From: Chitinophagaceae bacterium LGM1
GTDB taxonomy: Bacteria > Bacteroidota > Bacteroidia > Chitinophagales > Chitinophagaceae
NCBI GenBank assembly: GCA_018604165.1
Contig: CP075895.1
Coordinates: 2,661,001 to 2,725,000 of the forward strand
DNA length: 64,000 nt
Direction: 5' to 3'
Part shown: positions 2,569 to 47,018 of the stretch, one piece after another
How the letters are laid out: the number at the start of each line of letters is the position of its first letter
Numbering within the stretch: the first letter of the stretch is position 1
Made by a program: the position numbers and the translations under genes
Notes under the pieces: model-generated
What the model saw: the letters and a program-made list of their open reading frames with translations, nothing else
The model's database searches: none
Told to the model about the DNA's origin: nothing

Positions 2569-5349
2569 ATGGAATACGCGTTCAATACCATTGAAAAGAA
2601 GTGGAAGCAATACTGGAAAGACAAGCATGTGTATCGTGTTAGCAACGATAGCACAAAACCCAAATACTACATACTCGATATGTTTCCCTACCCCAGTGGT
2701 GCGGGGTTGCATGTGGGGCATCCGTTAGGTTATATAGCATCAGATATATACGCGCGCTACAAACGTATGAAGGGCTTTAATGTATTGCACCCCATGGGGT
2801 TCGATGCATTCGGCTTGCCTGCTGAGCAGTATGCGTTGGAAACAGGACAACACCCAGCAGTTACTACCGAAAAGAATATAGCACGCTATAAAGAGCAGTT
2901 AGACAATATTGGTTTCTGTTACGATTGGGAACGTGAGGTACGCACCTGCGATGCGGGTTATTATAAATGGACACAGTGGATTTTCCTGCAACTCTTCCAT
3001 AGCTGGTACGACCGCAAGCAACAAAAAGCACGTACCATTAAAGAGCTGATTGCCATTTTTGAAAAAGAGGGTAATGCTTATAACTCATGCCCCGATGATG
3101 AGAAGTTGAGTTTTGACGCGAAGGCATGGGCTGCCATGAGCGAGAAAGACAAGCGTGATACGTTGATGAAGTACCGCCTTGCTTTTCAGGGATATGCAGA
3201 AGTATGGTGGTGCGAGGCGCTGGGTACAGTATTGGCAAATGACGAGGTGGTGAATGGCGTATCGGAGCGTGGTGGACATCCCGTTATCCGTAAGCAGATG
3301 CGCCAATGGTTTTTGCGCATTACAGAATATGCAGACCGCTTACTGAGCAGCCTTGACACCCTTGAATGGAGCGATGCCATGAAAGAAATGCAACGCAACT
3401 GGATAGGCAAGAGCAATGGTGCGGAAGTACGGTTTGACATAGAGGGCTTTGCAGATAAACACATCACGGTTTTCACAACACGCCCCGATACTATCTTCGG
3501 TGTTGACTTTATGGTACTGGCACCAGAGCACGATTTGGTAGATGTAATAACTACCGAAGCACAATGCGAAGCTGTTGCCGAATACAAAAAATATGTACAA
3601 AGCCGTAGCGAACGCGAGCGTATGGCAGAGGTAAAACAAGTTACGGGCTGCTTTACGGGTGCGTATGTTACACACCCCTTTACACGCAAGCAAGTACCGA
3701 TATGGATTTCGGAGTATGTACTGGCAGGCTATGGTACAGGCGCTATTATGGCTGTGCCAAGTGGCGATGAGCGCGACCATGCTTTTGCCAAACACTTCAA
3801 CATACCCATCACTAATATTTTCGGCAGCAACTATCATGGCGATTTTGCTTATACCGAAAAAACAGGCACGTTGGAAAACAGCGGTTTCCTGAGTGGTATA
3901 GATGTATCGAAAGCTGTGGATGTAGCCATACGTGCTATTGCAGATGCAGGCATTGGCAAGGCTAAAGTGAATTATAAAATGCGCGATGCAGGCTTTAGCC
4001 GCCAACGTTATTGGGGTGAGCCTTTCCCTGTAGTGTATGTAAATGGCATACCGTATGCAACGGACGAGATAGATGGTGGCGATGCACTACCCGTAGCCCT
4101 ACCAATGGTAGAAAACTATAAGCCCGGTCCTGAAGGTGAAGGTCCTTTAGCTAATGTAACGGAATGGGTAAACACACCAGCAGGCACACGCGAAACCAAT
4201 ACTATGCCTGGCTATGCGGGTAGTAGCTGGTACTTTCTCCGCTATATGGACCCGACCAACGATGCGGAATTTGCGAGCAAACGAGCTACCGACTACTGGC
4301 GCGAAGTTGACCTATACATAGGTGGTACGGAACACGCTGTAGGGCATTTGCTATACAGCCGTTTGTGGACGAAAGTATTACACGACTTAGGTCACATCAG
4401 CTTTGAAGAACCTTTTAAGAAACTGGTAAATCAGGGTATGATACAGGGAAGTTCAAGGTTTGTGTATCGTGTACATGCAACAAAACAATTTGTATCAGCA
4501 GGCATTAAAGCAGAATACCACACAAATCCCATTAACGTTGATGTAAATATCGTTAATGGATTTGAGCTAGATATTGAGGCATTTAAAAAATGGAGACCTG
4601 AATATGCAGATGCAGAATTCATACTTGAAGATGGTAAATACATCTGTGGTGCAGAAGTAGAAAAAATGTCCAAATCAAAATACAATGTTGTGAACCCCGA
4701 TGATATTGTAGAAGATTTTGGTGCAGATACTTTCCGTATGTACGAGATGTTCCTGGGGCCTATAGATGTTAGCAAACCCTGGGAACAGAAAGGTATTGAG
4801 GGTGTTCACCGCTTCATCAAAAAAATGTGGCGTTTGTATGCAGATGAACAAACAGACTGGATTGTTACTGACGAAGCAACTACAGATGCAGAACTGAAAA
4901 CCCTGCACAAGACCATCAAAAAAATAGGCGAAGACATAGAGCGTTTTTCTTTCAATACAGCCGTTAGCCAATTTATGATTTGTGTAAACGAGCTAACATC
5001 GCTCAACTGCCATAAGCGCGCAGTATTACAACCTTTAGCAGTGCTCATCACACCATTTGCACCACACCTTGCAGAAGAATTATGGCAACACTGCCTCGGC
5101 AATACCACAACAGTACTCGATGCACCATTCCCCGTGTACGATGAAAAATACACGGTGGATAACAGCAAGATGTACCCCGTAGCAGTTAATGGTAAAACAC
5201 GGGCAGAAATGGAATTTGCATTAGATGCCCCGCAAGCAGATATAGAAGCTACCGTATTGGCAGATACTACCATACAAAAATGGATGGAAGGCAAGCCGGT
5301 AAAGAAGTTTATATATGTAAAGGGTAAGATGATAAATGTTGTGGTGTAG
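2569..5349 (+). CDS. leuS: Leucyl-tRNA synthetase
   Basis: Class I aminoacyl-tRNA synthetase charging tRNA-Leu with leucine in the cytoplasm. The chosen ATG gives 926 residues beginning MEYAFNTIEKKWKQYW, the usual LeuRS N-terminus; the open frame extends 22 codons further upstream but that part looks non-coding and contains the promoter. HVGHPLGY (HIGH motif) is near residue 50, the editing domain carries FTTRPDTIFGVD, and KMSKSKYNVV (KMSKS loop) is in the last third. An insertion after FLQLFHSWYD is typical of Bacteroidota LeuRS. The C-terminus ends with a short anticodon-side domain. It seems monocistronic, with a promoter at 2538 and an AT-rich inverted repeat just after the stop. Confidence 0.97.
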   Translation: MEYAFNTIEKKWKQYWKDKHVYRVSNDSTKPKYYILDMFPYPSGAGLHVGHPLGYIASDIYARYKRMKGFNVLHPMGFDAFGLPAEQYALETGQHPAVTTEKNIARYKEQLDNIGFCYDWEREVRTCDAGYYKWTQWIFLQLFHSWYDRKQQKARTIKELIAIFEKEGNAYNSCPDDEKLSFDAKAWAAMSEKDKRDTLMKYRLAFQGYAEVWWCEALGTVLANDEVVNGVSERGGHPVIRKQMRQWFLRITEYADRLLSSLDTLEWSDAMKEMQRNWIGKSNGAEVRFDIEGFADKHITVFTTRPDTIFGVDFMVLAPEHDLVDVITTEAQCEAVAEYKKYVQSRSERERMAEVKQVTGCFTGAYVTHPFTRKQVPIWISEYVLAGYGTGAIMAVPSGDERDHAFAKHFNIPITNIFGSNYHGDFAYTEKTGTLENSGFLSGIDVSKAVDVAIRAIADAGIGKAKVNYKMRDAGFSRQRYWGEPFPVVYVNGIPYATDEIDGGDALPVALPMVENYKPGPEGEGPLANVTEWVNTPAGTRETNTMPGYAGSSWYFLRYMDPTNDAEFASKRATDYWREVDLYIGGTEHAVGHLLYSRLWTKVLHDLGHISFEEPFKKLVNQGMIQGSSRFVYRVHATKQFVSAGIKAEYHTNPINVDVNIVNGFELDIEAFKKWRPEYADAEFILEDGKYICGAEVEKMSKSKYNVVNPDDIVEDFGADTFRMYEMFLGPIDVSKPWEQKGIEGVHRFIKKMWRLYADEQTDWIVTDEATTDAELKTLHKTIKKIGEDIERFSFNTAVSQFMICVNELTSLNCHKRAVLQPLAVLITPFAPHLAEELWQHCLGNTTTVLDAPFPVYDEKYTVDNSKMYPVAVNGKTRAEMEFALDAPQADIEATVLADTTIQKWMEGKPVKKFIYVKGKMINVVV

Positions 5350-9402: not shown

Positions 9403-11829
9403 ATGGAGCAACCTAACCAACAGCAGTTTTCTGAAAAGATACTGAAACAGTTTAACTCGTCGTTCGACTTTAAACGCTTGCTGGGCACATTAGTCAGCAA
9501 CTGGTATTGGTTTGTCTTGTCTGTATCTATCACTGTTACTGCCGGTTTCCTTTACTTGCGCTATACTACGCCCATCTACGAGATAGGCAGTTCTGTACTA
9601 ATAGACGAATCGCAAGACAACAACGTTGCGCAAAACGTCCTCAGTAAACTCGACCCTCAAAACGACAAATCGAAAGTCAACCTTTTTAACGAACAGGTAA
9701 TACTGCAATCGCAAGACATGCTGGCGAAAGTAGTTGACTCTCTTGCGCTGAATGTGCGCTATTGGGCATTAGGGCGTGTAAAGGAAACAGAAATATACAA
9801 GGAATGTCCAATAAGAGTAATCTTTGATACAACGGGCCTCACGGGCGGTACTGTAGAACTGACTGTGAAACAATCTATGGAAGGTCAGTTTGAAGTAACC
9901 AATGCAGGCAATACCGACAAAGTATTGTACGATACATGGGTTACCAAACCATACGGACGCTTCAAAATACAATATGCAGAAGGGCTTGGTGTAAACAAAG
10001 GCTATCTGAAAACAGCCGAATTTATTGTAAAAGTAGAACCACGCGCAGCTGCACTGGGTCGTATTTCCGGCTTATTTTCCGTGTCGCTTAATGACGGGCG
10101 TACCAGCTTGCTGGGGCTTACTTATACCGACAATATTCCGCAACGAGGTGTTGACTTTCTGAACTCACTAATACACTTCTACCAGAAAAACGAACTGGAA
10201 AACATCAACAAAAAAGCAGAGAAAACACGCGATTTTCTAAAAGCTAAGAAAGCAACCATCAAAGACGAGTTGAAGTTTATTGACTCGATGCAAGTGGACA
10301 TCAAACTGAATAACGATATAGTTGACCCAGCCGCACAAACAGAGCAGTTTATGGGACAAAAGACGGAAGCTGAGGCAGAGGTAAATAAAAGGCTTTTGCA
10401 GAAACAAGGCATTGTAAGCCTGAAAAATACCGTGATGACACTTCCACCAAACAGATACTCTATCCTTAGCATAAGTTCTGATGACCCGACATTAGGAGGC
10501 TTAATAACTCAATATAACACAGAAGTAAAACAAAGGGATGCTATTGCACGCAATGTAGGCCCTGAACATCCCTCGTTAAAAGAGGCCGAATACGAGATAA
10601 AAGAACAACGCAGGCGCATCATCGTAGCATGCGATGCAGTGTTAGATAAAATAAATCTGGAAATACAGAACGCTGCTAAAAACGCTGCTGAATATACCAG
10701 CAAAATACGCAATACACCCAATGTAGAGCGCAATATAAAAGACGTAAGCCGTGGTTACGATGTATTACAGCAAACGTATTTATTACTGTATCAGAAAGAT
10801 GTAGAGAACGAAATTTCGGTATATGCGGCTACCAACAAATCGAAAGTAATTGTTGTACCGTTTGCATCCGCAACACCCATCAAGCCAGTACCTAAAACCA
10901 TTTATGCCATAGTCTTTCTGCTGGGCATACTGATACCAGGCGGCTATCTTGTGGCAAGGGAAATGCTGAACAACAAAGTGATTAACGACCATGATATTGA
11001 GTCACTTACCAATATACCCATTGTGGGCAGTATCAGCCGTGTAGAAGCTGCCACAAGTCGAGAAAGTACTATCGTAGTAGGCCCACACATCCGCACTGGT
11101 GTTGCAGAGCAATTCCGCCTGATACGTGCTAACCTCGAGTTTATGGCGGCAGCACAAAACAACCGCGTGTTCATGATAACATCGAGCAGTAGCGGCGAGG
11201 GTAAATCGTTTATATCTATCAACCTAGGTATCACCATGACACTTGCCAAAAAGCGTGTCATCATTATGGAGTTCGACTTACGGAAACCTAAAATTTCACA
11301 ATACCTCGGTCTGCCCAATCATGGTGGTATTAGTAGTTATTTGGCAGGCATGGGCGATTTAGATATAGCCATCAAAGCATCTGGCATACACGAAAATCTG
11401 TACATAGCCAATTGCGGCCCTATACCACCCAACCCAGGCGAATTGCTTGTGCTGCCTAAAACGGCACAGATGATTGAAGAACTGAAAGAAATGTTTGATG
11501 TCATCATCATAGATACTGCTCCTATAGGGCTGGTATCAGATGCATTGGTACTATCACAATATGCAGGTATCAATTTGTTTGTTATACGCCAGTCGTACAC
11601 CATCAAAGACCAGGTGCGGATGTTTGATGTGTTGCATAAAGACGGCAAAGTGCAAAACCCCGCCATCATTTTCAATGGTGTTGAATTTTTGAAGAAATAC
11701 GGATATGGATACGGTGGTAGTGGCTACGGATATTCTTATGGTTACGGATATGGATACGGCTACTACGAAGAAACAAACCCTAAGAAGAAACAAGGTGGTG
11801 GCGGATTGAAAGGATTTTTTACGAAATAA
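9403..11829 (+). CDS. wzc: Wzc-like chain-length regulator and tyrosine autokinase
   Basis: 808 residues, the full fused form. A Wzz domain begins near residue 25 with a membrane segment (WYWFVLSVSITVTAGFLYL), followed by a large periplasmic coiled-coil region and a second membrane segment near residue 500. The cytoplasmic kinase has Walker A SSSGEGKS, Walker A' IIMEFDLRKP and Walker B FDVIIIDTAP. The A' motif has Glu where the family usually has Asp. The C-terminus is a tyrosine-glycine run (about residues 766-786), the autophosphorylation cluster. It controls polymer length and export through the Wza channel by cycles of phosphorylation. No separate phosphatase gene is in the cluster. Confidence 0.93.
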   Translation: MEQPNQQQFSEKILKQFNSSFDFKRLLGTLVSNWYWFVLSVSITVTAGFLYLRYTTPIYEIGSSVLIDESQDNNVAQNVLSKLDPQNDKSKVNLFNEQVILQSQDMLAKVVDSLALNVRYWALGRVKETEIYKECPIRVIFDTTGLTGGTVELTVKQSMEGQFEVTNAGNTDKVLYDTWVTKPYGRFKIQYAEGLGVNKGYLKTAEFIVKVEPRAAALGRISGLFSVSLNDGRTSLLGLTYTDNIPQRGVDFLNSLIHFYQKNELENINKKAEKTRDFLKAKKATIKDELKFIDSMQVDIKLNNDIVDPAAQTEQFMGQKTEAEAEVNKRLLQKQGIVSLKNTVMTLPPNRYSILSISSDDPTLGGLITQYNTEVKQRDAIARNVGPEHPSLKEAEYEIKEQRRRIIVACDAVLDKINLEIQNAAKNAAEYTSKIRNTPNVERNIKDVSRGYDVLQQTYLLLYQKDVENEISVYAATNKSKVIVVPFASATPIKPVPKTIYAIVFLLGILIPGGYLVAREMLNNKVINDHDIESLTNIPIVGSISRVEAATSRESTIVVGPHIRTGVAEQFRLIRANLEFMAAAQNNRVFMITSSSSGEGKSFISINLGITMTLAKKRVIIMEFDLRKPKISQYLGLPNHGGISSYLAGMGDLDIAIKASGIHENLYIANCGPIPPNPGELLVLPKTAQMIEELKEMFDVIIIDTAPIGLVSDALVLSQYAGINLFVIRQSYTIKDQVRMFDVLHKDGKVQNPAIIFNGVEFLKKYGYGYGGSGYGYSYGYGYGYGYYEETNPKKKQGGGGLKGFFTK

Positions 11830-39889: not shown

Positions 39890-41422
39890 TCAGATATTGA
39901 ACTTAATGCCCTGTGCAAGCGGCAGATTCTCGCTCCAGTTGATGGTATTGGTTTGACGGCGCATATAGGCTTTCCAGCTATCAGAACCACTTTCGCGACC
40001 ACCGCCTGTTTCTTTTTCACCACCGAAAGCACCACCTATCTCTGCACCGCTAGTACCTATGTTTACATTAGCAATACCGCAATCACTGCCTTTATGAGAA
40101 AGGAATGTTTCCGCCTCGCGCATATTCAGCGTCATAATAGAAGACGACAAACCTTGCGGAACACTGTTTTGTAGCGCAATGGCTTCTTCCAGTGTCTTAT
40201 ACTTCATAATATACAATAGTGGCGCAAACGTTTCGTGCTGCACTATCTGCATATCATTTTTCACTTCGTAGATGCAGGGCTTTACGTAGCACCCACTTTC
40301 ATAACCTTTGCCGCTCAACACGCCACCTGCAACAACAACTTTAGCACCTTCTTTTTTCAATGCATTAATAGCGTGCAGGTAATTTTGTACCGCATCCGTA
40401 TCTATTAATGGACCTACATGATTTTTCTCGTTCAGCGGGTCGCCGATATTTAGTTGTTTGTATGCAGCTACTAATTTTTTCTTAAATGCCTCGTACACGC
40501 TTTCGTGTATAATAACACGGCGTGTAGTAGTACAACGCTGTCCTGCTGTACCTACCGCGCCAAATACTACTGCACGCATGGCTATGTTCATATCAGCATG
40601 CTCGCTTACAATGATGGCGTTGTTGCCACCCAACTCCAGCAACGCGCGCCCAAGCCTTGAACCAACAGCCGCACCTACTGCCTTGCCCATACGTGTGCTG
40701 CCTGTTGCAGACACTAATGGAATACGCGCGTCATTGCTCATCCATTCACCTGTTTCGCGGCCACCAACTACTAAACCACAAACGCCCTCAGGTACTTTAT
40801 TGGCTTTGAAAACATCCGCTATAATATTCTGACAAGCGATGGCTGTCAACGGTGTTTTTTCAGATGGCTTCCATACACAAGTGTTACCGCATACCCATGC
40901 CAGAAAACTATTCCAACTCCAAACCGCAACGGGGAAATTGAATGCACTGATAATACCCACCACACCCAACGGGTGCCACTGCTCGTACATACGGTGCATG
41001 GGGCGCTCGCTATGCATGGTAAGCCCATACAACTGGCGAGATAAGCCAACTGCAAAGTCGGCAATATCTATCATCTCTTGCACTTCACCCAAACCCTCTT
41101 GCAGGCTCTTACCCATCTCGTACGACACCAACCTGCCCAATGGTTCTTTATGCTTGCGCAATGCTTCACCAACCTGCCTTACCACCTCGCCACGCTTAGG
41201 TGCAGGCCACATTCGCCATTCTTCAAAGGCGGCTTCTGCCTGTTGTACAACTGCATCGTAGGTTTTGCGGGTAACGCCGTTTACTGTACCTATCTCTTTA
41301 CCATCAACAGGACTCCACGACATAATCTTTTCACCACCTGCCTTAATCCATTTTGTACCTGTACCAGCACCTTCATTATTTTTTTTGATACCGAGCGTAT
41401 CTAATACTTTATTCAGTTTCAT
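39890..41422 (-). CDS. amaB: ALDH7-type aldehyde dehydrogenase
   Basis: 510 residues. Catalytic Glu is in LELGGNNAIIV (about residue 270) and catalytic Cys in GTAGQRCTTTRR; SAFNFPVAVW and KPSEKTPLTA bind the cofactor. The C-terminal IGTSGAEIGGAFGGEKETGG and GSDSWKAYMRR are the mark of the ALDH7 group, alpha-aminoadipic semialdehyde/L-piperidine-6-carboxylate dehydrogenase, which oxidises the semialdehyde of lysine breakdown with NAD+. The neighbours show no other lysine catabolic gene. It has a -7 element at 41443. Confidence 0.88.
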   Translation of the reverse strand: MKLNKVLDTLGIKKNNEGAGTGTKWIKAGGEKIMSWSPVDGKEIGTVNGVTRKTYDAVVQQAEAAFEEWRMWPAPKRGEVVRQVGEALRKHKEPLGRLVSYEMGKSLQEGLGEVQEMIDIADFAVGLSRQLYGLTMHSERPMHRMYEQWHPLGVVGIISAFNFPVAVWSWNSFLAWVCGNTCVWKPSEKTPLTAIACQNIIADVFKANKVPEGVCGLVVGGRETGEWMSNDARIPLVSATGSTRMGKAVGAAVGSRLGRALLELGGNNAIIVSEHADMNIAMRAVVFGAVGTAGQRCTTTRRVIIHESVYEAFKKKLVAAYKQLNIGDPLNEKNHVGPLIDTDAVQNYLHAINALKKEGAKVVVAGGVLSGKGYESGCYVKPCIYEVKNDMQIVQHETFAPLLYIMKYKTLEEAIALQNSVPQGLSSSIMTLNMREAETFLSHKGSDCGIANVNIGTSGAEIGGAFGGEKETGGGRESGSDSWKAYMRRQTNTINWSENLPLAQGIKFNI

Positions 41423-41442
41423 ATTGTTAATTCAAAGAGACG

Positions 41443-41450
41443 CAAAGGTA
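41443..41450 (-). promoter_or_regulatory. -7 element before the ALDH gene
   Basis: On the minus strand TACCTTTG, 20 bases before the start. No -33 TTG is clear. Confidence 0.5.
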
Positions 41451-41500
41451 AGGTTTGCATTTTGATAAACCTGCTACCTTGCTCTTATCCAACCACATAA

Positions 41501-41615
41501 CCCCATGCCTTCAGACTGGGGATATAAACCATAACCGCAGAGGCTTTAGCCATGACTGTATTTATCATGGCTAAAGCCTGTATCAATATACCTGCTGCCG
41601 CACACTTCAGTGCGG
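41501..41615. repeat. Composite palindromic element (three hairpins)
   Basis: Three inverted repeats in 115 bases between the ALDH and MNIO genes. The first is CCCCA/TGGGG (41501-41505/41517-41521) with CTTCAG in the loop. The second is AGGCTTTAGCCATGA/TCATGGCTAAAGCCT (41541-41555/41565-41579), 15 perfect base pairs. The third is CCGCAC/GTGCGG (41598-41603/41610-41615) with ACTTCA in the loop. The first and third share CTTCAG-type centres and a following GGGG. The layout resembles dispersed REP-type elements of Bacteroidota; it may also end MNIO transcription. Confidence 0.65.
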
Positions 41616-41634
41616 GGTTAATTTACTTTATGTA

Positions 41635-42759
41635 TTAATCCCCCTTCTTCCACTTCTGTGCTATGCTGATGGCGGTTTCCAGCATATAGGGTGCCCAGTT
41701 TTCTATCTGCCATTCGCTATTGGCAAGCGATGAGTTTTGAAGCCTCTGCAAAGCATCGCTATAGCTTGCCGCTGTCTCTAAAATTTCAGAGAGTGTTGTT
41801 TGCTGCCTGTACAGTTCTTCATCTTCTGCCACGGTTGCTGGCAGCATCAGTGATGCGGGAATAAAATCATTAGTGAGTGGTGGTATATCAGTTGCAGCTT
41901 TCACTATTTTATGCATCTTCAGGTAGTCTGTAGCAAAAGCTTCTCTGCTCTCTTGCGTATGTAGTGCAGTACCCAATTGCTCGAGTATTACAAATTGCAG
42001 GTTGGGACATTTTGGAATAATGTACTCAAGCATAATAAACACCTCGTAAGGCACTGTACCATCATGCGTATCACGCCTTACTTTTCTGCCATTTTCTATT
42101 GCCGATTGTTCCCAACTACCGCCAGATATGTGTACTTCCCTCACTTTATGTAAGGGGTACAACTTAATAATCTCATCTATACTAACAGAAAAATTCTGCA
42201 AATGGCAATACAGGTTATGCAGGTCGAGAATAATGAACCCATTGACAGGTGTTATCAGCTTCTCTAAAAATTCGCCATGTCGTTTTACCTCATCCAGACT
42301 GTACGAAAAAGCAAGGTTTTCCAAACCTACGGGCTTGCCACAACCATCATAGATTCTTGCCAATCTATCTTGGCCTATTGCCAGTGTCGTGTTTGTATAG
42401 GGTATGCTCAAAGGTGCGCCACTATGAAAGTCGGCACCAGTCATAAACCCAAAATGTTCTGTAATATGATTGAAGTTGAAAGCGGCAGCTACTTTGCTGA
42501 GGTGTTTAAGCCACGCCTGTTGTTCAGCCGTCCACCTACCCGAAAACAACGAGAAGTAAACACCATGTCCTACCAGCCTGTCCGCATCTGCAAATGTTTG
42601 CAGTAATTGCAAAAACCAATCAGGAATATTTTTTCGGTTGTATAATGCATCAAAAGACCATTCAATGGCTTCTACTTTCGATGCTTCGAATAACGGATAG
42701 CACGCCTGCAATATATCTGCATCAAGGTTGCAAGCCACCCCTGTATGTATGGTACGCAC
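41635..42759 (-). CDS. DUF692/MNIO iron-dependent peptide-modifying oxidase
   Basis: 374 residues from a GTG. A TIM-barrel DUF692 (multinuclear non-haem iron oxidase) domain fills about 1-285. Probable iron ligands, by comparison with MbnB/TglH-type enzymes: H65 (GHGVYFS), E101 (TEHFGF), E147 and N148 (GLEN), D179 (ILDLHN), H210 (VHISGGS), D230 and H232 (RRDTHD), E260 (VILEQLG). The usual HLAGH-like motif is replaced by HISGG. Residues 290-374 form an extra helical tail with no family I recognise. Known members rework cysteine or Asx residues of ribosomal peptides, using O2. It lies 22 bases after the small peptide gene below, which is the likely substrate. No DUF2063 partner is adjacent. Confidence 0.86.
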   Translation of the reverse strand: MRTIHTGVACNLDADILQACYPLFEASKVEAIEWSFDALYNRKNIPDWFLQLLQTFADADRLVGHGVYFSLFSGRWTAEQQAWLKHLSKVAAAFNFNHITEHFGFMTGADFHSGAPLSIPYTNTTLAIGQDRLARIYDGCGKPVGLENLAFSYSLDEVKRHGEFLEKLITPVNGFIILDLHNLYCHLQNFSVSIDEIIKLYPLHKVREVHISGGSWEQSAIENGRKVRRDTHDGTVPYEVFIMLEYIIPKCPNLQFVILEQLGTALHTQESREAFATDYLKMHKIVKAATDIPPLTNDFIPASLMLPATVAEDEELYRQQTTLSEILETAASYSDALQRLQNSSLANSEWQIENWAPYMLETAISIAQKWKKGD

Positions 42760-42781
42760 GCGTTATAGCAGGCTTAGTATT

Positions 42782-42958
42782 TTAACCCATGCCACAAGCG
42801 GGGCAGTTATCAGGATGCTCGGGCGATACAGACGGGTTTTGTGTTTGTTCTGTATTATTTGCAGGTGCAACATTTTTCGCATCGTCTTTTGTACAAGATG
42901 ATGTTTCTACAGCTATACCCAGCAATAATGCGCCTAACAATACTTTTGAGAGTTCCAT
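42782..42958 (-). CDS. Small lipoprotein-like peptide ending CPACGMG, probable MNIO substrate
   Basis: 58 residues, below usual calling length. The N-terminus MELSKVLLGALLLGIAVE is a hydrophobic signal followed by TSSC (Cys22), a plausible though weak Bacteroidota lipobox. A polar linker rich in N, Q, T, P follows (residues 23-48). The C-terminus is DNCPACGMG with cysteines 52 and 55. The start is an ATG and the stop is 22 bases before the oxidase GTG, on the same strand. I infer that the C-terminal cysteines are the modification site and that the product is carried on a membrane-anchored or secreted peptide. The reading frame shows no frameshift. Without the neighbour it would be an anonymous small ORF. 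Confidence 0.78.
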   Translation of the reverse strand: MELSKVLLGALLLGIAVETSSCTKDDAKNVAPANNTEQTQNPSVSPEHPDNCPACGMG

Positions 42959-43070
42959 CTTTCGATAATATTTATACTAAAGCTACCGCTTATTATAGTA
43001 GTACGATAAAATAAAATGTCATTTTTTTGTTACAGTCCTGAAAATCCCCCTCTTTGAGCTAACCCTATTG

Positions 43071-43616
43071 TTATATTATGAACGGTGAGTTAAAAGCATC
43101 CAGTTTCCCGAACGACAAATCCCTTTCTGAAATAATGGGATTATCTACCCCCCAATCAAAACCAAAGCTATTGTACAATATACCCGTATCGCTTTCTTTA
43201 TTGTAGCCCGATGATACCAAATAGTACGTCATCGCATCATCCGTCAGTGCCTTGAAACCATGTGCAAAACCCTCAGGAATGAAATAGGCTTTATGATTGT
43301 CAGCAGAAAGCTCGTGTGCATAGTATTGTCCGTATGTGGTAGATTCTTTGCGCAAATCAACAATAACATCCAGTATCGCCCCTTGCGGGCAAAATACCAC
43401 TTTGCTATGCTGGTGAGGGGGCAACTGAAAGTGCATACCACGTATCACATCTTTGGCAGATGTGGAATAATAGCTTTCACGCAAGGTAAATTCAATACCT
43501 GCCTGCCCGAACGTAGCCTCGTTGAAAGGTTTAACAAATACGCCCCTGTCGTCTGCAAAACGGGGCATGGTTATGAGAAAAGCCCCCACCAATGGCAATG
43601 CTTCAAAATGATACAT
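43071..43616 (-). CDS. rfbC: RmlC-like sugar 3,5-epimerase
   Basis: 181 residues of the cupin-type RmlC family. Catalytic His is in VIRGMHFQLPPHQHSKVVF, which also carries the substrate-binding Lys; FADDRGVFVKPF and YFIPEGFAHGF are further family signatures, and the end holds NPIISERDLSF. The classic substrate is dTDP-4-dehydro-6-deoxyglucose; because rfbF and rfbG (CDP-glucose) are the near neighbours, a CDP-linked keto sugar is an alternative. No rmlA, rmlB or rmlD is in view. Confidence 0.87.
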   Translation of the reverse strand: MYHFEALPLVGAFLITMPRFADDRGVFVKPFNEATFGQAGIEFTLRESYYSTSAKDVIRGMHFQLPPHQHSKVVFCPQGAILDVIVDLRKESTTYGQYYAHELSADNHKAYFIPEGFAHGFKALTDDAMTYYLVSSGYNKESDTGILYNSFGFDWGVDNPIISERDLSFGKLDAFNSPFII

Positions 43617-43664
43617 ACTATGCCAAATTACAGCGTTTAGCGATAAAAAACTTAAAGAAAAAGG

Positions 43665-43672
43665 TAATTTTG
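43665..43672 (+). promoter_or_regulatory. -7 element before the aminotransferase
   Basis: TAATTTTG fits TAnnTTTG, 24 bases before the ATG at 43697. It supports the internal start rather than the longer frame, since a transcript from here would not contain the upstream codons. Confidence 0.5.
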
Positions 43673-43696
43673 CGGTTGGCTTTAAGTAAAGTGCAT

Positions 43697-45172
43697 ATGC
43701 AGCAACATTTTCAGGATATACGCAACAATATTATCGGCATCAACCACAGTTTTGTTTCGCCATTTGGCAAAAAGAAAATACTGTATGCCGACTGGACTGC
43801 CAGTGGGCGTATGTACAAGCCTATTGAAGATTTTATGATGGATGAGGTGTACCCGTATGTTGCCAATACACATACACGCACCACTTTCACAGGCTCTCAC
43901 ATGACGGAGTTGTATCAGCAAAGCCTGCAAAAAATAAAAGCACATGTTGGGGCGGGCGCAAATGAAGTCATTATATCGAGCAATGCGGGTATGACGGGTG
44001 TCATCAATAAATTTCAGCGTATGCTTGGCCTGCGCCTGCACGAAAATTTTGAAGATAAAATAACCATACCTGACAATGAACGCCCTGTTGTGTTCATCAC
44101 CCACATGGAGCACCACAGCAACCATACCACATGGTTGGAAACAATTTGCGAGGTAGTAGTGATTCCCCCCAACGAACAAAACGAAGTTGACTTAGCCGCT
44201 TTTGAAAAACAGCTTGCTGCTTACGCGCAACACAAATTGAAAATAGCTTCTGTTACAGCCTGCTCAAATGTTACGGGCGTATACATACCTCATCATAAAA
44301 TAGCCGCTATTATCCATCAACACGGCGGGCTTTGTTTTGTGGATTTTGCTTGCAATGCGCCCTATGTTGACATCAACATGAACCCAGCCATACCCAATGA
44401 ATACCTTGATGCTGTTTTCTTTTCACCACACAAATTTCTTGGCGGGCCGGGTAGTAGCGGCATATTGGTTTTCAAAAAAGAGTTGTATCAAAACGTAACA
44501 CCCGACCACCCAGGCGGCGGCACAGTAGTATGGACAAGCCCATACGAAAAACACGTTTACAAAACAGATATTGAAAGCCGCGAAGATGGTGGTACACCTG
44601 GCTTTATACAAACCATCCGCGTAGCAAAAGCTATAGAACTGAAAGAAGCGATGGGTACTGCCAATATTCAACAGCGCGAAGAAGAATTGCTGGAACGCCT
44701 TTGGCAACGTGTAGAGAAGATGGATGGTGTAAAAATACTGGAACCCGGCATACGACACAGACAAGCCATATTATCGCTGGTGTTTGATGATATGCACTAC
44801 CACATGGTGGTAAAAGCACTGAACGATATGTTTGGCATACAGGCACGCGGGGGCTGCTCTTGTGCAGGCACATACGGGCATCACCTTTATGGGCTCGACC
44901 ATGATGCATCGCTGCATATAAAAGACGAAATAGTAAGCGGCAATCCGTTGGTACGGATAGGTTGGGTGCGCATATCGCTGCACCCTACTATGCTGGAAAG
45001 CGAAATTGATTTTATTGCAGATGCCATGCAGTTTGTCATCAACCAAAAAGAAACCATAAAAAAACTGTATCAGTACGATACAGCTAAAAAAGAGTTTTAT
45101 TTAGACCAAGAGGCTTTGCAAACAGAACAGTTGCCCGAAGAAATATTTACGGGTAGTGTTGTTACTGTTTAA
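43697..45172 (+). CDS. Class V PLP-dependent aminotransferase / cysteine desulfurase-like
   Basis: 491 residues from the ATG; a GTG two codons upstream is an alternative. The open frame continues upstream across the divergent rfbC start and the promoter. YADWTASGRMY at the N-terminus, THMEHHSNHTTW (substrate/PLP ring), VDFACNAPYVD (PLP nitrogen Asp) and FFSPHKFLGGPGSSGIL (Schiff-base Lys) are class V motifs. The C-terminal RGGCSCAGTYGHHLY places a cysteine where cysteine desulfurases have the active Cys, but the surroundings differ. Sulfur transfer or amino-group chemistry is possible. It converges with rfbG and overlaps it by four bases. Confidence 0.8.
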   Translation: MQQHFQDIRNNIIGINHSFVSPFGKKKILYADWTASGRMYKPIEDFMMDEVYPYVANTHTRTTFTGSHMTELYQQSLQKIKAHVGAGANEVIISSNAGMTGVINKFQRMLGLRLHENFEDKITIPDNERPVVFITHMEHHSNHTTWLETICEVVVIPPNEQNEVDLAAFEKQLAAYAQHKLKIASVTACSNVTGVYIPHHKIAAIIHQHGGLCFVDFACNAPYVDINMNPAIPNEYLDAVFFSPHKFLGGPGSSGILVFKKELYQNVTPDHPGGGTVVWTSPYEKHVYKTDIESREDGGTPGFIQTIRVAKAIELKEAMGTANIQQREEELLERLWQRVEKMDGVKILEPGIRHRQAILSLVFDDMHYHMVVKALNDMFGIQARGGCSCAGTYGHHLYGLDHDASLHIKDEIVSGNPLVRIGWVRISLHPTMLESEIDFIADAMQFVINQKETIKKLYQYDTAKKEFYLDQEALQTEQLPEEIFTGSVVTV

Positions 45173-46260
45173 AAATTACCAAAATAATCTGCAATTTGCC
45201 GCATACATTTTTCGTGTGCGGCATTTTCTTTGTCTGCGTACCAGTCGGCAGTCATTTCTATAGCTTGTGTAGCATTCAGTTGTGGTTGCCAGCCTATAAG
45301 GTTCTGTGCTTTGCTGCTATCAAGCAACAACAACTTTGCTTCGTGTAGTGGCTTATCGGGTGTAACGGTTGTATATCCACCCGTACCATAACGTGCTACA
45401 AATATTTTAGTCAGGTCTTCTACCGTCAGGGTATCATTTACATCAGGACCAAAGTTGAATGCAGTACTGTATCGTACAGGGTCTTCCGTCATCTTAGCAG
45501 CCAGTAACAGGTATGCACCAAGCGGTTCTAATACATGCTGCCAAGGGCGTACGGATTGAGGGTTGCGCAAGCCAACCGTTTCACCAAATTCCAGCGCGCG
45601 TACTATATCGGGTATTATTCTATCATCTGAAAAATCGCCACCACCTATTACATTGCCTGCCCGTACAGACGCTACTGCTTTTTGATGCTTGCTATATGCC
45701 TCGGGGCTGAAGAAAGAACGGGTGTAAGACTCAACTATTATCTCTGCCGCTGCTTTGCTGGCAGAGTATGGGTCGTACCCACCAAGTTTATCATCTTCTT
45801 TAAAGGGTGTACCACGCTCAGGGTTTTCATATACTTTGTCGGTAGTAATCATCAATGCCACACAAGGGTGTTGCATACTACGCACTGCTTCCAACACATG
45901 ACAAGTGCCTTGCGCATTTACCATAAACGTATCAACAGGCATATCGTAACTACGGCGTACCAGCGACTGTGCTGCCAGATGAAAGACAAAATGCGGCTCG
46001 AAGCGTACTATTTCACCTTGCAGCTTTTGCATATCTCGCAAGTCGCCTATTACAGAGCTATAGCAAATTTTATCACCATCAATCAGATTATATAAATCGT
46101 TCGATTTTTCAGGAGCTAATGCATAGCCTTTCACATCTGCACCCAACCATTGCAATATCTGTATAAGCCATGCGCCTTTAAAGCCTGTATGCCCTGTTAC
46201 AAACACACGCTTGTCTTTAAACACCGAACGCAGATAAGCTGCTTTTACCACTTTTTCCAT
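45169..46260 (-). CDS. rfbG: CDP-glucose 4,6-dehydratase
   Basis: 363 residues from the ATG that begins MEKVVKAAYLRSVFKDKRVF; the longer frame to 46278 lies inside rfbF and is less likely. SDR fold with VTGHTGFKGAWL (NAD loop), TTDKVYEN and YDPYSASKAAAE (catalytic YxxxK), and RAGNVIGGGDFSDDRIIPD, a signature of this enzyme. It converts CDP-glucose to CDP-4-dehydro-6-deoxyglucose, start of the CDP-dideoxysugar routes. It overlaps rfbF by 16 bases, so the two are coupled. Confidence 0.93.
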   Translation of the reverse strand: MEKVVKAAYLRSVFKDKRVFVTGHTGFKGAWLIQILQWLGADVKGYALAPEKSNDLYNLIDGDKICYSSVIGDLRDMQKLQGEIVRFEPHFVFHLAAQSLVRRSYDMPVDTFMVNAQGTCHVLEAVRSMQHPCVALMITTDKVYENPERGTPFKEDDKLGGYDPYSASKAAAEIIVESYTRSFFSPEAYSKHQKAVASVRAGNVIGGGDFSDDRIIPDIVRALEFGETVGLRNPQSVRPWQHVLEPLGAYLLLAAKMTEDPVRYSTAFNFGPDVNDTLTVEDLTKIFVARYGTGGYTTVTPDKPLHEAKLLLLDSSKAQNLIGWQPQLNATQAIEMTADWYADKENAAHEKCMRQIADYFGNF

Positions 46261-47018
46261 AGGGGTTCTGTTTGCCAAAGATGTTCCAGTTCTTCTTTAT
46301 CGCGTAGCGTATCCATACACTTCCAGAAAGCGTGGTGCTTGTAGGCTGTTATCTGTTTATCTGCTGCCAGTTTATCCATCGGGTATCGTTCCCACATGAT
46401 GTCGTCCGCATCATCGGGCAAATACTTTGCAATAGATGGCTCTATAACAAAGAAGCCCCCATTTATCCATGTACCACTATCTTCCGGCTTTTCTTCAAAG
46501 CTATCTATCACACCATTGTCTTCCATTTTGATGACACCAAAGCGGCTGGTAGCCTGTATAGCCGTCATAGTACAAACCCTGCCACTATCTTTATGAAACT
46601 GCACCAGCTCATTAATATTCACGTCACTCACACCATCGCCATAGGTAAGCATAAAAGTTTCGTTACCTACATAGGGCAATATGCGTTTCAGCCTGCCTGC
46701 CGTCATGGTATCTACGCCCGTATCAATCAATGTTATTTTAAACGGTTCTGCATTGTTATTGTGTACTTCCAATGAGTTTTTAGAAAGGTCAACAGTAATG
46801 TCTGCATTATGCAAAAAGTAGTTGGCAAAATATTCTTTTATCATCCAGCCTTTGTAGCCGAGGCAGATGATAAACTCCGTATGCCCGTAAGCAGCATATA
46901 TCTTCATGATATGCCAGAGGATGGGCTTACCACCTATTTCTATCATAGGCTTCGGTCTCAGCGACGACTCCTCAGATATTCGCGTACCCCTGCCACCTGC
47001 AAATATTACAACCTTCAT
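46245..47018 (-). CDS. rfbF: Glucose-1-phosphate cytidylyltransferase
   Basis: 257 residues. FAGGRGTRISEESSLRPKPM is the nucleotide-binding start, then LTYGDGVSDVNI (metal site), EEKPEDSGTWINGGFFV, and WERYPMDKLAADKQ at the sugar-binding end, all usual in RfbF. It makes CDP-glucose from CTP and glucose-1-phosphate. With rfbG it forms a two-gene unit for CDP-4-dehydro-6-deoxyglucose. No rfbH or reductase gene is in view, so the final sugar is unknown. Confidence 0.95.
   Translation of the reverse strand: MKVVIFAGGRGTRISEESSLRPKPMIEIGGKPILWHIMKIYAAYGHTEFIICLGYKGWMIKEYFANYFLHNADITVDLSKNSLEVHNNNAEPFKITLIDTGVDTMTAGRLKRILPYVGNETFMLTYGDGVSDVNINELVQFHKDSGRVCTMTAIQATSRFGVIKMEDNGVIDSFEEKPEDSGTWINGGFFVIEPSIAKYLPDDADDIMWERYPMDKLAADKQITAYKHHAFWKCMDTLRDKEELEHLWQTEPLWKKW

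Follow-up and report, generated by a model that had tools for sequence, protein, structure and literature searches.

A predicted DybA/DybH-type lipopeptide and MNIO pair in Chitinophagaceae bacterium LGM1, with a conserved signal-peptide register in its relatives

Is the 58-codon open reading frame (ORF) that precedes a DUF692 oxidase gene in Chitinophagaceae bacterium LGM1 a gene at all, and what would the two make together? The pair was analysed in a window of 64,000 nucleotides (contig CP075895.1 of assembly GCA_018604165.1, positions 2,661,001 to 2,725,000), to which all LGM1 coordinates below refer. The ORF, with an ATG start and the translation MELSKVLLGALLLGIAVETSSCTKDDAKNVAPANNTEQTQNPSVSPEHPDNCPACGMG, was found at 42782-42958 on the minus strand, and the DUF692 gene at 41635-42759 on the same strand, 22 bases downstream, as a preliminary description of this DNA had placed them. 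The layout which that description gave for the peptide was also confirmed: a hydrophobic N-terminus runs to TSSC (Cys22), a polar linker follows, and the peptide ends in DNCPACGMG with Cys52 and Cys55. From the sequence and from conservation in the family, residues 1-22 are a predicted lipoprotein signal peptide with the lipobox-like TSSC at its end (42893-42958, minus strand). TKDD stands right behind the lipid Cys (42881-42892, minus strand) and fits the C-X-K-(D/E)2 export signal (PMC5080379). The C-terminal CPACGMG (42785-42805, minus strand) is the core and, from the chemistry of homologues (PMC12636315), the expected MNIO target.

The precursor matched the NCBIfam model NF050125, "chryseobasin-related MNIO class RiPP peptide", with 68.4 bits against a cut-off of 40, over positions 1-56 of 56. 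The ChrA model NF050124 gave 15.9 bits, under its cut-off of 50. Judged by eye, the sequence belongs to the DybA group, with a lipobox Cys behind a hydrophobic stretch and a C-terminal CPxCGxG; the lipobox Cys was missing from both ChrA-type peptides examined. Relatives were collected in a named-genome set, the best 80 of 216 and close kin by choice, in which the nearest was the Flavipsychrobacter MAG L094 (enzyme 80% identical). Codon changes between LGM1 and L094, a check named in the preliminary description, showed amino-acid constraint on the ORF (NG86 dN 0.108, with dS saturated at 3.75). Of these 80 loci, 79 had a precursor relative on the upstream side of the enzyme gene, and 78 had there an ORF ending in C-x-x-C-G-x-G on the same strand, at no more than 217 bases from the enzyme match in 77 of the 78 and at 627 bases in one; locus L149 has the variant core CPACSMG. 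The NF050125 score, the upstream relatives and the low dN indicate that the 58-codon ORF is a real gene, encoding a ChrA-related, DybA-type precursor lipopeptide.

The DUF692 gene (374 aa, GTG start) is assigned to a ChrH/DybH-type MNIO from profile matches, an AlphaFold2 model and its PDB matches. The enzyme scored 95.3 bits against Pfam PF05114 (MbnB_TglH_ChrH, cut-off 25), and its best NCBIfam model was NF050165 (MNIO_ChrH), at 390.5 bits against an equivalog cut-off of 600. That cut-off was reached in none of 195 genomes of the bacterial family, and all 12 long homologues fell below it, so the score cannot tell whether the enzyme methylates. Scores for other equivalogs lay far under their cut-offs (BufB 79 against 310, HvfB family 60.2 against 360, MbnB 17.7 against 325). 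The AlphaFold2 model, built with 61 sequences, was of high confidence (pLDDT 93, pTM 0.92) and consists of a barrel of strands alternating with helices, then helices at 314-329, 333-341 and 357-371. Its top PDB matches were TglH (8hci, 8hi7) and MbnB (7tcw, 7tcr, 7fc0, 7dz9), whose TM-scores, normalised to target length, lay at 0.70-0.80, and a family-profile sequence search of structures returned TglH and 3bww. The DUF692 assignment made earlier is upheld by the PF05114 score and this fold, and the helical tail noted then is visible in the model as a C-terminal helical domain, residues about 314-371 (41647-41820, minus strand), which corresponds to the subfamily domain of PMC12636315.

Across the alignment of 61 enzymes, 84 of 374 positions were invariant, among them H65, E101, H102, E147, N148, D179, H181, H210, D230, H232 and E260. 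These His, Glu, Asp and Asn residues are of the sort expected to hold iron and are putative ligands. Compared with L094 over the first 370 codons, the enzyme gave an NG86 dN of 0.14 and a dS of 1.75. A PF05114 search of the LGM1 genome found a single MNIO, and a search for DUF2063 (PF09836) found no match genome-wide, in agreement with the missing partner of the preliminary description. ChrI (DUF1772) had no match among the nine window proteins scanned.

How the pair is distributed was assessed in the same 195 family genomes. NF050125 scored above its cut-off in 12, and a ChrH-type enzyme scored above 300 bits in 12; these were the same 12 genomes, LGM1 included, and the two genes were adjacent by coordinates. 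The search for the short ORF beside DUF692 genes in Chitinophagaceae, which the preliminary description had proposed, returned it in every genome with a ChrH-type enzyme above 300 bits (12 of 12). Eleven further family genomes had weaker enzyme-model matches, 103 bits at most and mostly to other MNIO kinds; the strongest is a decayed ChrH-like fragment with stops and frame breaks (L089, genome G162, about 9612-9881). A second decayed copy, in which only the C-terminal end matches, was seen at about 4077-4184 of L183 (G554). The two other genomes of LGM1's own genus had no match to the precursor or enzyme model. Phylum-wide, the enzyme exceeded 300 bits in 6 of 395 genomes (profile A1); in one of these six, G236, it consists of the core part only.

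A plasmid of Hymenobacter volaticus carries an enzyme 59.7% identical to that of LGM1, and just upstream of it lies a CPACGMG lipopeptide (L246; NZ_CP095062.1, 269985-270185) which is unlisted in the PLSDB gene table, a table incomplete by design. The plasmid search with the peptide as query gave no match, a miss of sensitivity, since the enzyme query found the Hymenobacter copy. The earlier expectation that such an ORF escapes gene finders is partly dated now that an NCBI family model exists, though the unlisted plasmid peptide would fit it. Patchy presence, the plasmid copy and the two decayed remnants suggest gain and loss of the pair.

The cores of 87 precursors, drawn from 78 loci of which nine hold two precursors, were CPACGMG (59), CPGCGMG (11), CPACGLG (6), CPGCGLG (3) and CPVCGMG (2), with six others once each. 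Second, upstream precursors ending in CITCGRG, CPPCGRG and CIACGRG were seen at L083 (G125, 10200-11500), L087 (G101, 9485-9712) and L144, respectively; with Arg in place of Met, these cores may possibly give another natural product variant. At locus L140 the ChrH-type enzyme is full-length, yet 8,055 bases around it contain no CPxCGxG peptide, and the substrate of this enzyme may lie elsewhere. In L182 (G236, contig 41, 1-2400), a ChrH-type core is followed by a small open frame in another frame that resembles the C-terminal domain, similar to the split enzyme form reported from Cyanobacteria in PMC12636315. No CPxCGxG peptide was found in 6 kb of L182, the frame just upstream ending in TGACGMG with a single Cys, and the contig may be foreign to its genome.

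Because the core motif by itself was reported sufficient for DybH (PMC12636315), orphan substrates were also sought. The degenerate pattern TGY-CCN-NNN-TGY-GGN-NNN-GGN-TRR matched only the LGM1 precursor in its own genome. At the nucleotide level, the CPxCGxG-stop pattern was matched in 34 of 195 family genomes, 11 of them with a ChrH-type enzyme. The match rate in genomes without such an enzyme (23 of 183) was near that of a reversed control pattern (21 of 195), and 13 of 44 matches close with TGG, not a stop codon; these matches gave no sign of orphan substrates.

What the pair would make can be predicted from its closest published counterparts. The founding system is ChrA/ChrH (PMC10214503), which PMC12452194 places among the MNIO families. 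A 2025 preprint (PMC12636315) characterised the present architecture in other Bacteroidota, with a C-terminal CPACGMG, a lipobox Cys and a helical tail. It reports that Bacteroidota precursors outside Chryseobacterium carry one extra conserved Cys, which is the lipobox Cys, together with a CPxCGxG end that is mostly CPACGMG; that the minimal unit is a precursor and an MNIO without an obvious partner protein; and that a C-terminal helical bundle occurs in the whole enzyme subfamily. We conclude from sequence comparison that the LGM1 pair is an uncharacterised member of this ChrH/DybH subfamily, of DybA type. The published homologues support the earlier reading of the pair as a minimal RiPP system whose product is anchored in the membrane. 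Four features were called unusual in that reading, namely the lipoprotein leader, the CPxCGMG core, the lack of a DUF2063 partner and the helical end of the enzyme; all of them are standard in the subfamily.

In the same preprint, a loss of 4 Da resulted from DybH of Dyadobacter and from its Chitinophaga sancti and Hymenobacter homologues. For DybA, NMR assigned the product as a macrocycle plus hydantoin in which a single thiol stays free; it had no UV-visible chromophore, and DybA was isolated as a triacylated lipoprotein. By analogy, the chemistry of the LGM1 pair is likely to be of this kind, a Cys-Cys macrocycle and a hydantoin with one thiol left free. We consider it very probable that the pair acts as a DybA/DybH-type RiPP-lipoprotein ("DAG-RiPP") unit, in which modification of the core by the MNIO precedes export and lipidation. 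The cytoplasmic MNIO would bind the precursor at its C-terminal CPACGMG and, using iron and O2, remove four hydrogens, joining the Cys52 sulfur to the former Cys55 in a macrocycle and forming the hydantoin. The precursor would then be exported, Lgt would place diacylglycerol on Cys22, and LspA would cleave the signal peptide; the LGM1 genome has one match to each of Lgt and LspA. Both of these steps are taken from homologues in which others demonstrated them. A further step is our own proposal: the lipopeptide would reach the outer membrane, where its C-T-K-D-D makes flipping to the surface probable, with the polar linker holding the modified tail outward. As to role, our guess is that a surface-held thiol or macrocycle binds a metal or a small ligand.

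Other outcomes were weighed against this unit. The core CPACGMG is identical to that of chryseobasin, so that an S-methylated product (+10 Da), as made by Chryseobacterium ChrH, might be envisaged, and co-expression of ArlA and ArlH from Archangium yielded both this product and the -4 Da one (PMC12636315). The LGM1 precursor, however, falls well short of the ChrA cut-off (15.9 bits against 50) and shares its lipobox Cys with the DybA group, whose members DybA, ChsA and HymA gave -4 Da with their own enzymes (PMC12636315); a chryseobasin-like product is accordingly rated improbable. A copper-binding peptide of the bufferin/oxazolin or methanobactin kind, with thiooxazole or oxazolone-thioamide groups, would draw on the same enzyme superfamily, and some bufferins and oxazolins are lipidated, as predicted or shown (PMC12636315). 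Against it, the BufB, HvfB-family and MbnB scores lie far under their cut-offs, the genome has no DUF2063 partner, and the core is unlike EGKCG. From these comparisons, oxazolone or thiooxazole chemistry is not the likely kind for the LGM1 pair, and we give such a peptide only a very slight chance.

The proposed chemistry could also serve a different end, if the modified tail bound a lipid-II-like pyrophosphate and acted as an antimicrobial or envelope factor. The authors of PMC12636315 note that the ring resembles the B ring of nisin, which is the attraction of this reading; the absence of any gene widely common to the loci means that none suggests itself for immunity or export, and a membrane anchor would limit the reach of the peptide, leaving it unlikely, though the least so of these alternatives. 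That the short ORF is spurious, a chance frame over an untranslated motif, is suggested by nothing more than its shortness; the curated family match above cut-off, the relatives in 79 of 80 loci and the amino-acid constraint are strongly contrary, and we regard this as next to impossible. The DybA/DybH-type unit remains the preferred reading.

The recognition of precursors by their C-terminus likely relaxes selection on the N-terminus, according to PMC12636315. In the lipopeptide group, the linker fits this view and the signal peptide runs against it. Signal peptides, taken to the lipid Cys, had a mean pairwise identity of 0.565 over 600 sampled pairs of the named set and of 0.549 over the 55 pairs from 11 family sequences, two sets that overlap (L121 = G001, L130 = G174, L116 = G149); the linkers gave 0.28 and 0.27, respectively. 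Two lipoproteins of the same bacterial family served as controls, namely GldD, with 0.335 for the signal and 0.558 for the mature part (210 pairs), and GldH, with 0.339 and 0.448 (231 pairs). The controls represent 21 of 30 GldD and 22 of 30 GldH loci, the rest being dropped where the script found no lipobox; some have questionable starts, and filtering by length (to 16 and 19) did not alter the result. The enzymes of the 11-sequence set were 0.60 identical, so that the signal peptide is kept at nearly the enzyme's level. When pairs were binned by partner-protein identity, signal identity in the 0.60-0.65 bin was 0.572 (350 RiPP pairs) against 0.334 (54 GldD pairs). Among the controls, GldH in the 0.65-0.75 bin came closest to the RiPPs, with 0.452 (8 pairs) against 0.696 (80 RiPP pairs).

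Over 18 ungapped residues from the first Met, identities were 0.554 and 0.539 for the RiPP sets and 0.154 and 0.164 for the controls, a comparison that favours the RiPPs because control signal lengths vary, the gapped one being fairer. The pattern that picked the starts of named precursors required [LIVM]-[SPTN]-x-x-[LIV]-[LIV] behind the Met and so inflates positions 3-8. No such pattern was applied to the 11 family sequences, which came from the ORF list with three starts set by eye; they led to the same answer, as did positions 9-18 only (RiPP 0.428 and 0.442, controls 0.103 and 0.124). With one sequence per genus label (33), these positions gave 0.39 against 0.127 when shuffled. The register is set from the N-terminus, C-anchored identity being only 0.25-0.27. 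Strong positions were K2, S/P4, K5, L7, L8, A10 and G14, with the consensus M-K-L-[SP]-K-x-L-L-x-A-I-x-x-G; residue 2 is E in the LGM1 precursor and K in 72 of 78 relatives. A fold of the precursor joined to the enzyme, with the stop read as Q and the natural spacer kept (15 loci in frame), had a signal helix at residues 5-24, with pLDDT of 70-76 over residues 1-20 and below 50 over residues 23-82, the linker and core, and gave no indication of docking.

The conserved register is the one observation here that a specialist might find surprising. It could mean that the signal peptide is more than an export tag, either a hidden leader that times modification ahead of export or a released helix with a role at the membrane, and that the tail is shown at the surface; we hold this tentatively, at somewhat less than an even chance. 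If true, such a role would amend the published view of relaxed N-terminal selection. The logo in Fig. 1c of PMC12636315 may display the same signal conservation.

Surface display can be considered from the residues behind the lipid Cys. The optimal lipoprotein export signal of Capnocytophaga canimorsus is C-X-K-(D/E)2-X (PMC5080379), and the LGM1 precursor, with C-T-K-D-D-A, meets C-X-K-(D/E)2, a motif defined in Capnocytophaga that may not hold in Chitinophagaceae. K/Q-(D/E)2 within six residues after the Cys was present in 19 of 78 relatives, one precursor being taken from each, as compared with a mean of 2.95 (sd 1.71, maximum 8) in 500 linker shuffles and with none of 21 GldD and none of 22 GldH controls; the relatives are related sequences, and their counts are not independent. 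The exact C-X-K-(D/E)2 occurred in 14 of 78 relatives (9 of them Chitinophaga), 64 being without it, and in 1 of 69 lipoprotein-like flank proteins, a background picked by a rough pattern. Against these 69, K/R at +3 was found in 54% vs 22%, and D/E at +5 in 56% vs 16%. In the 11-sequence family set, the exact form occurred in the LGM1 precursor only. Surface display of the LGM1 peptide is a fair inference from these patterns.

In the parts of PMC12636315 available to us, neither signal-register conservation nor a C-T-K-D-D export signal was found, and the words "surface" and "export signal" are absent from its main text. Among titles and abstract openings of the literature, mostly open papers, none was recognised that deals with conservation of the signal peptide in this family or with a signal for its export to the surface. 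Signal-register conservation and export-motif enrichment are both computational observations.

The neighbourhood gave little to add. The pair occupies the same position in LGM1 as in two Flavipsychrobacter MAGs (L094 and L095), with an rfbC-like gene from a group of nucleotide-sugar genes on one side and an aldehyde dehydrogenase gene on the other; the latter is 95% identical between the window and L094, so that LGM1 probably belongs to Flavipsychrobacter or close by. The nucleotide-sugar genes beside the pair span 43071-47018 of the window (rfbC-, CDP-glucose dehydratase- and nucleotidyltransferase-like), a placement kept in the two MAGs. Of the gene families at the 12 family loci, only the MNIO occurred in more than three. 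PMC12636315 notes SusCD genes as frequent near loci of the subfamily. Across our 80 named loci, with each neighbour group named from a reading of one member, the next most widespread groups were TonB/SusC-like (12 loci, 6 genus labels), ECF-sigma-like (11), SDR-like (8) and SusD-like (8). Proteins of all four kinds are common in the phylum. No functional clue was taken from neighbours, the most widespread group being present in 12 of 80 loci and common phylum-wide.

Rfam models at gathering scores had no match in 41400-43700, and promoter-like sites were near chance (9 found, 6.2 expected). An inverted repeat with perfectly matching 15-bp arms around a 9-base loop was seen at 41541-41579, between the MNIO and aldehyde dehydrogenase genes; as RNA it folds with -27.5 kcal/mol (z -6.4), and by eye no T run follows the stem. 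The 10-mer GGCTTTAGCC has three sites in the window against 0.16 expected, two of them the repeat arms and the third at 3991.

Set beside known systems, the LGM1 unit is a compact example of a recently described class. It most resembles DybA/DybH of Dyadobacter crusticola, ChsA/ChsH of Chitinophaga sancti and HymA/HymH of Hymenobacter gelipurpurascens, as reported in PMC12636315, in its two genes, lipobox Cys and CPxCGxG end, and in being partner-free with a C-terminal helical domain in the enzyme. It differs from them in coming from another genus, in being known from sequence alone and in having E at residue 2. ChrA/ChrH of Chryseobacterium shares the CPACGMG core, the enzyme subfamily and the helical tail, but belongs to a larger cluster (chrI, chrE, chrP) with an S-methylated product, chryseobasin (PMC10214503), whereas that of LGM1 is a two-gene unit. 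TglH, MbnB, BufB and HvfB are related through the MNIO superfamily, and the fold is common to TglH and MbnB. These four differ in having partner proteins, other motifs and other products (PMC12636315, PMC12452194), and the C-terminal helical domain of the LGM1 enzyme sets it apart from MbnB and TglH, which are without it.
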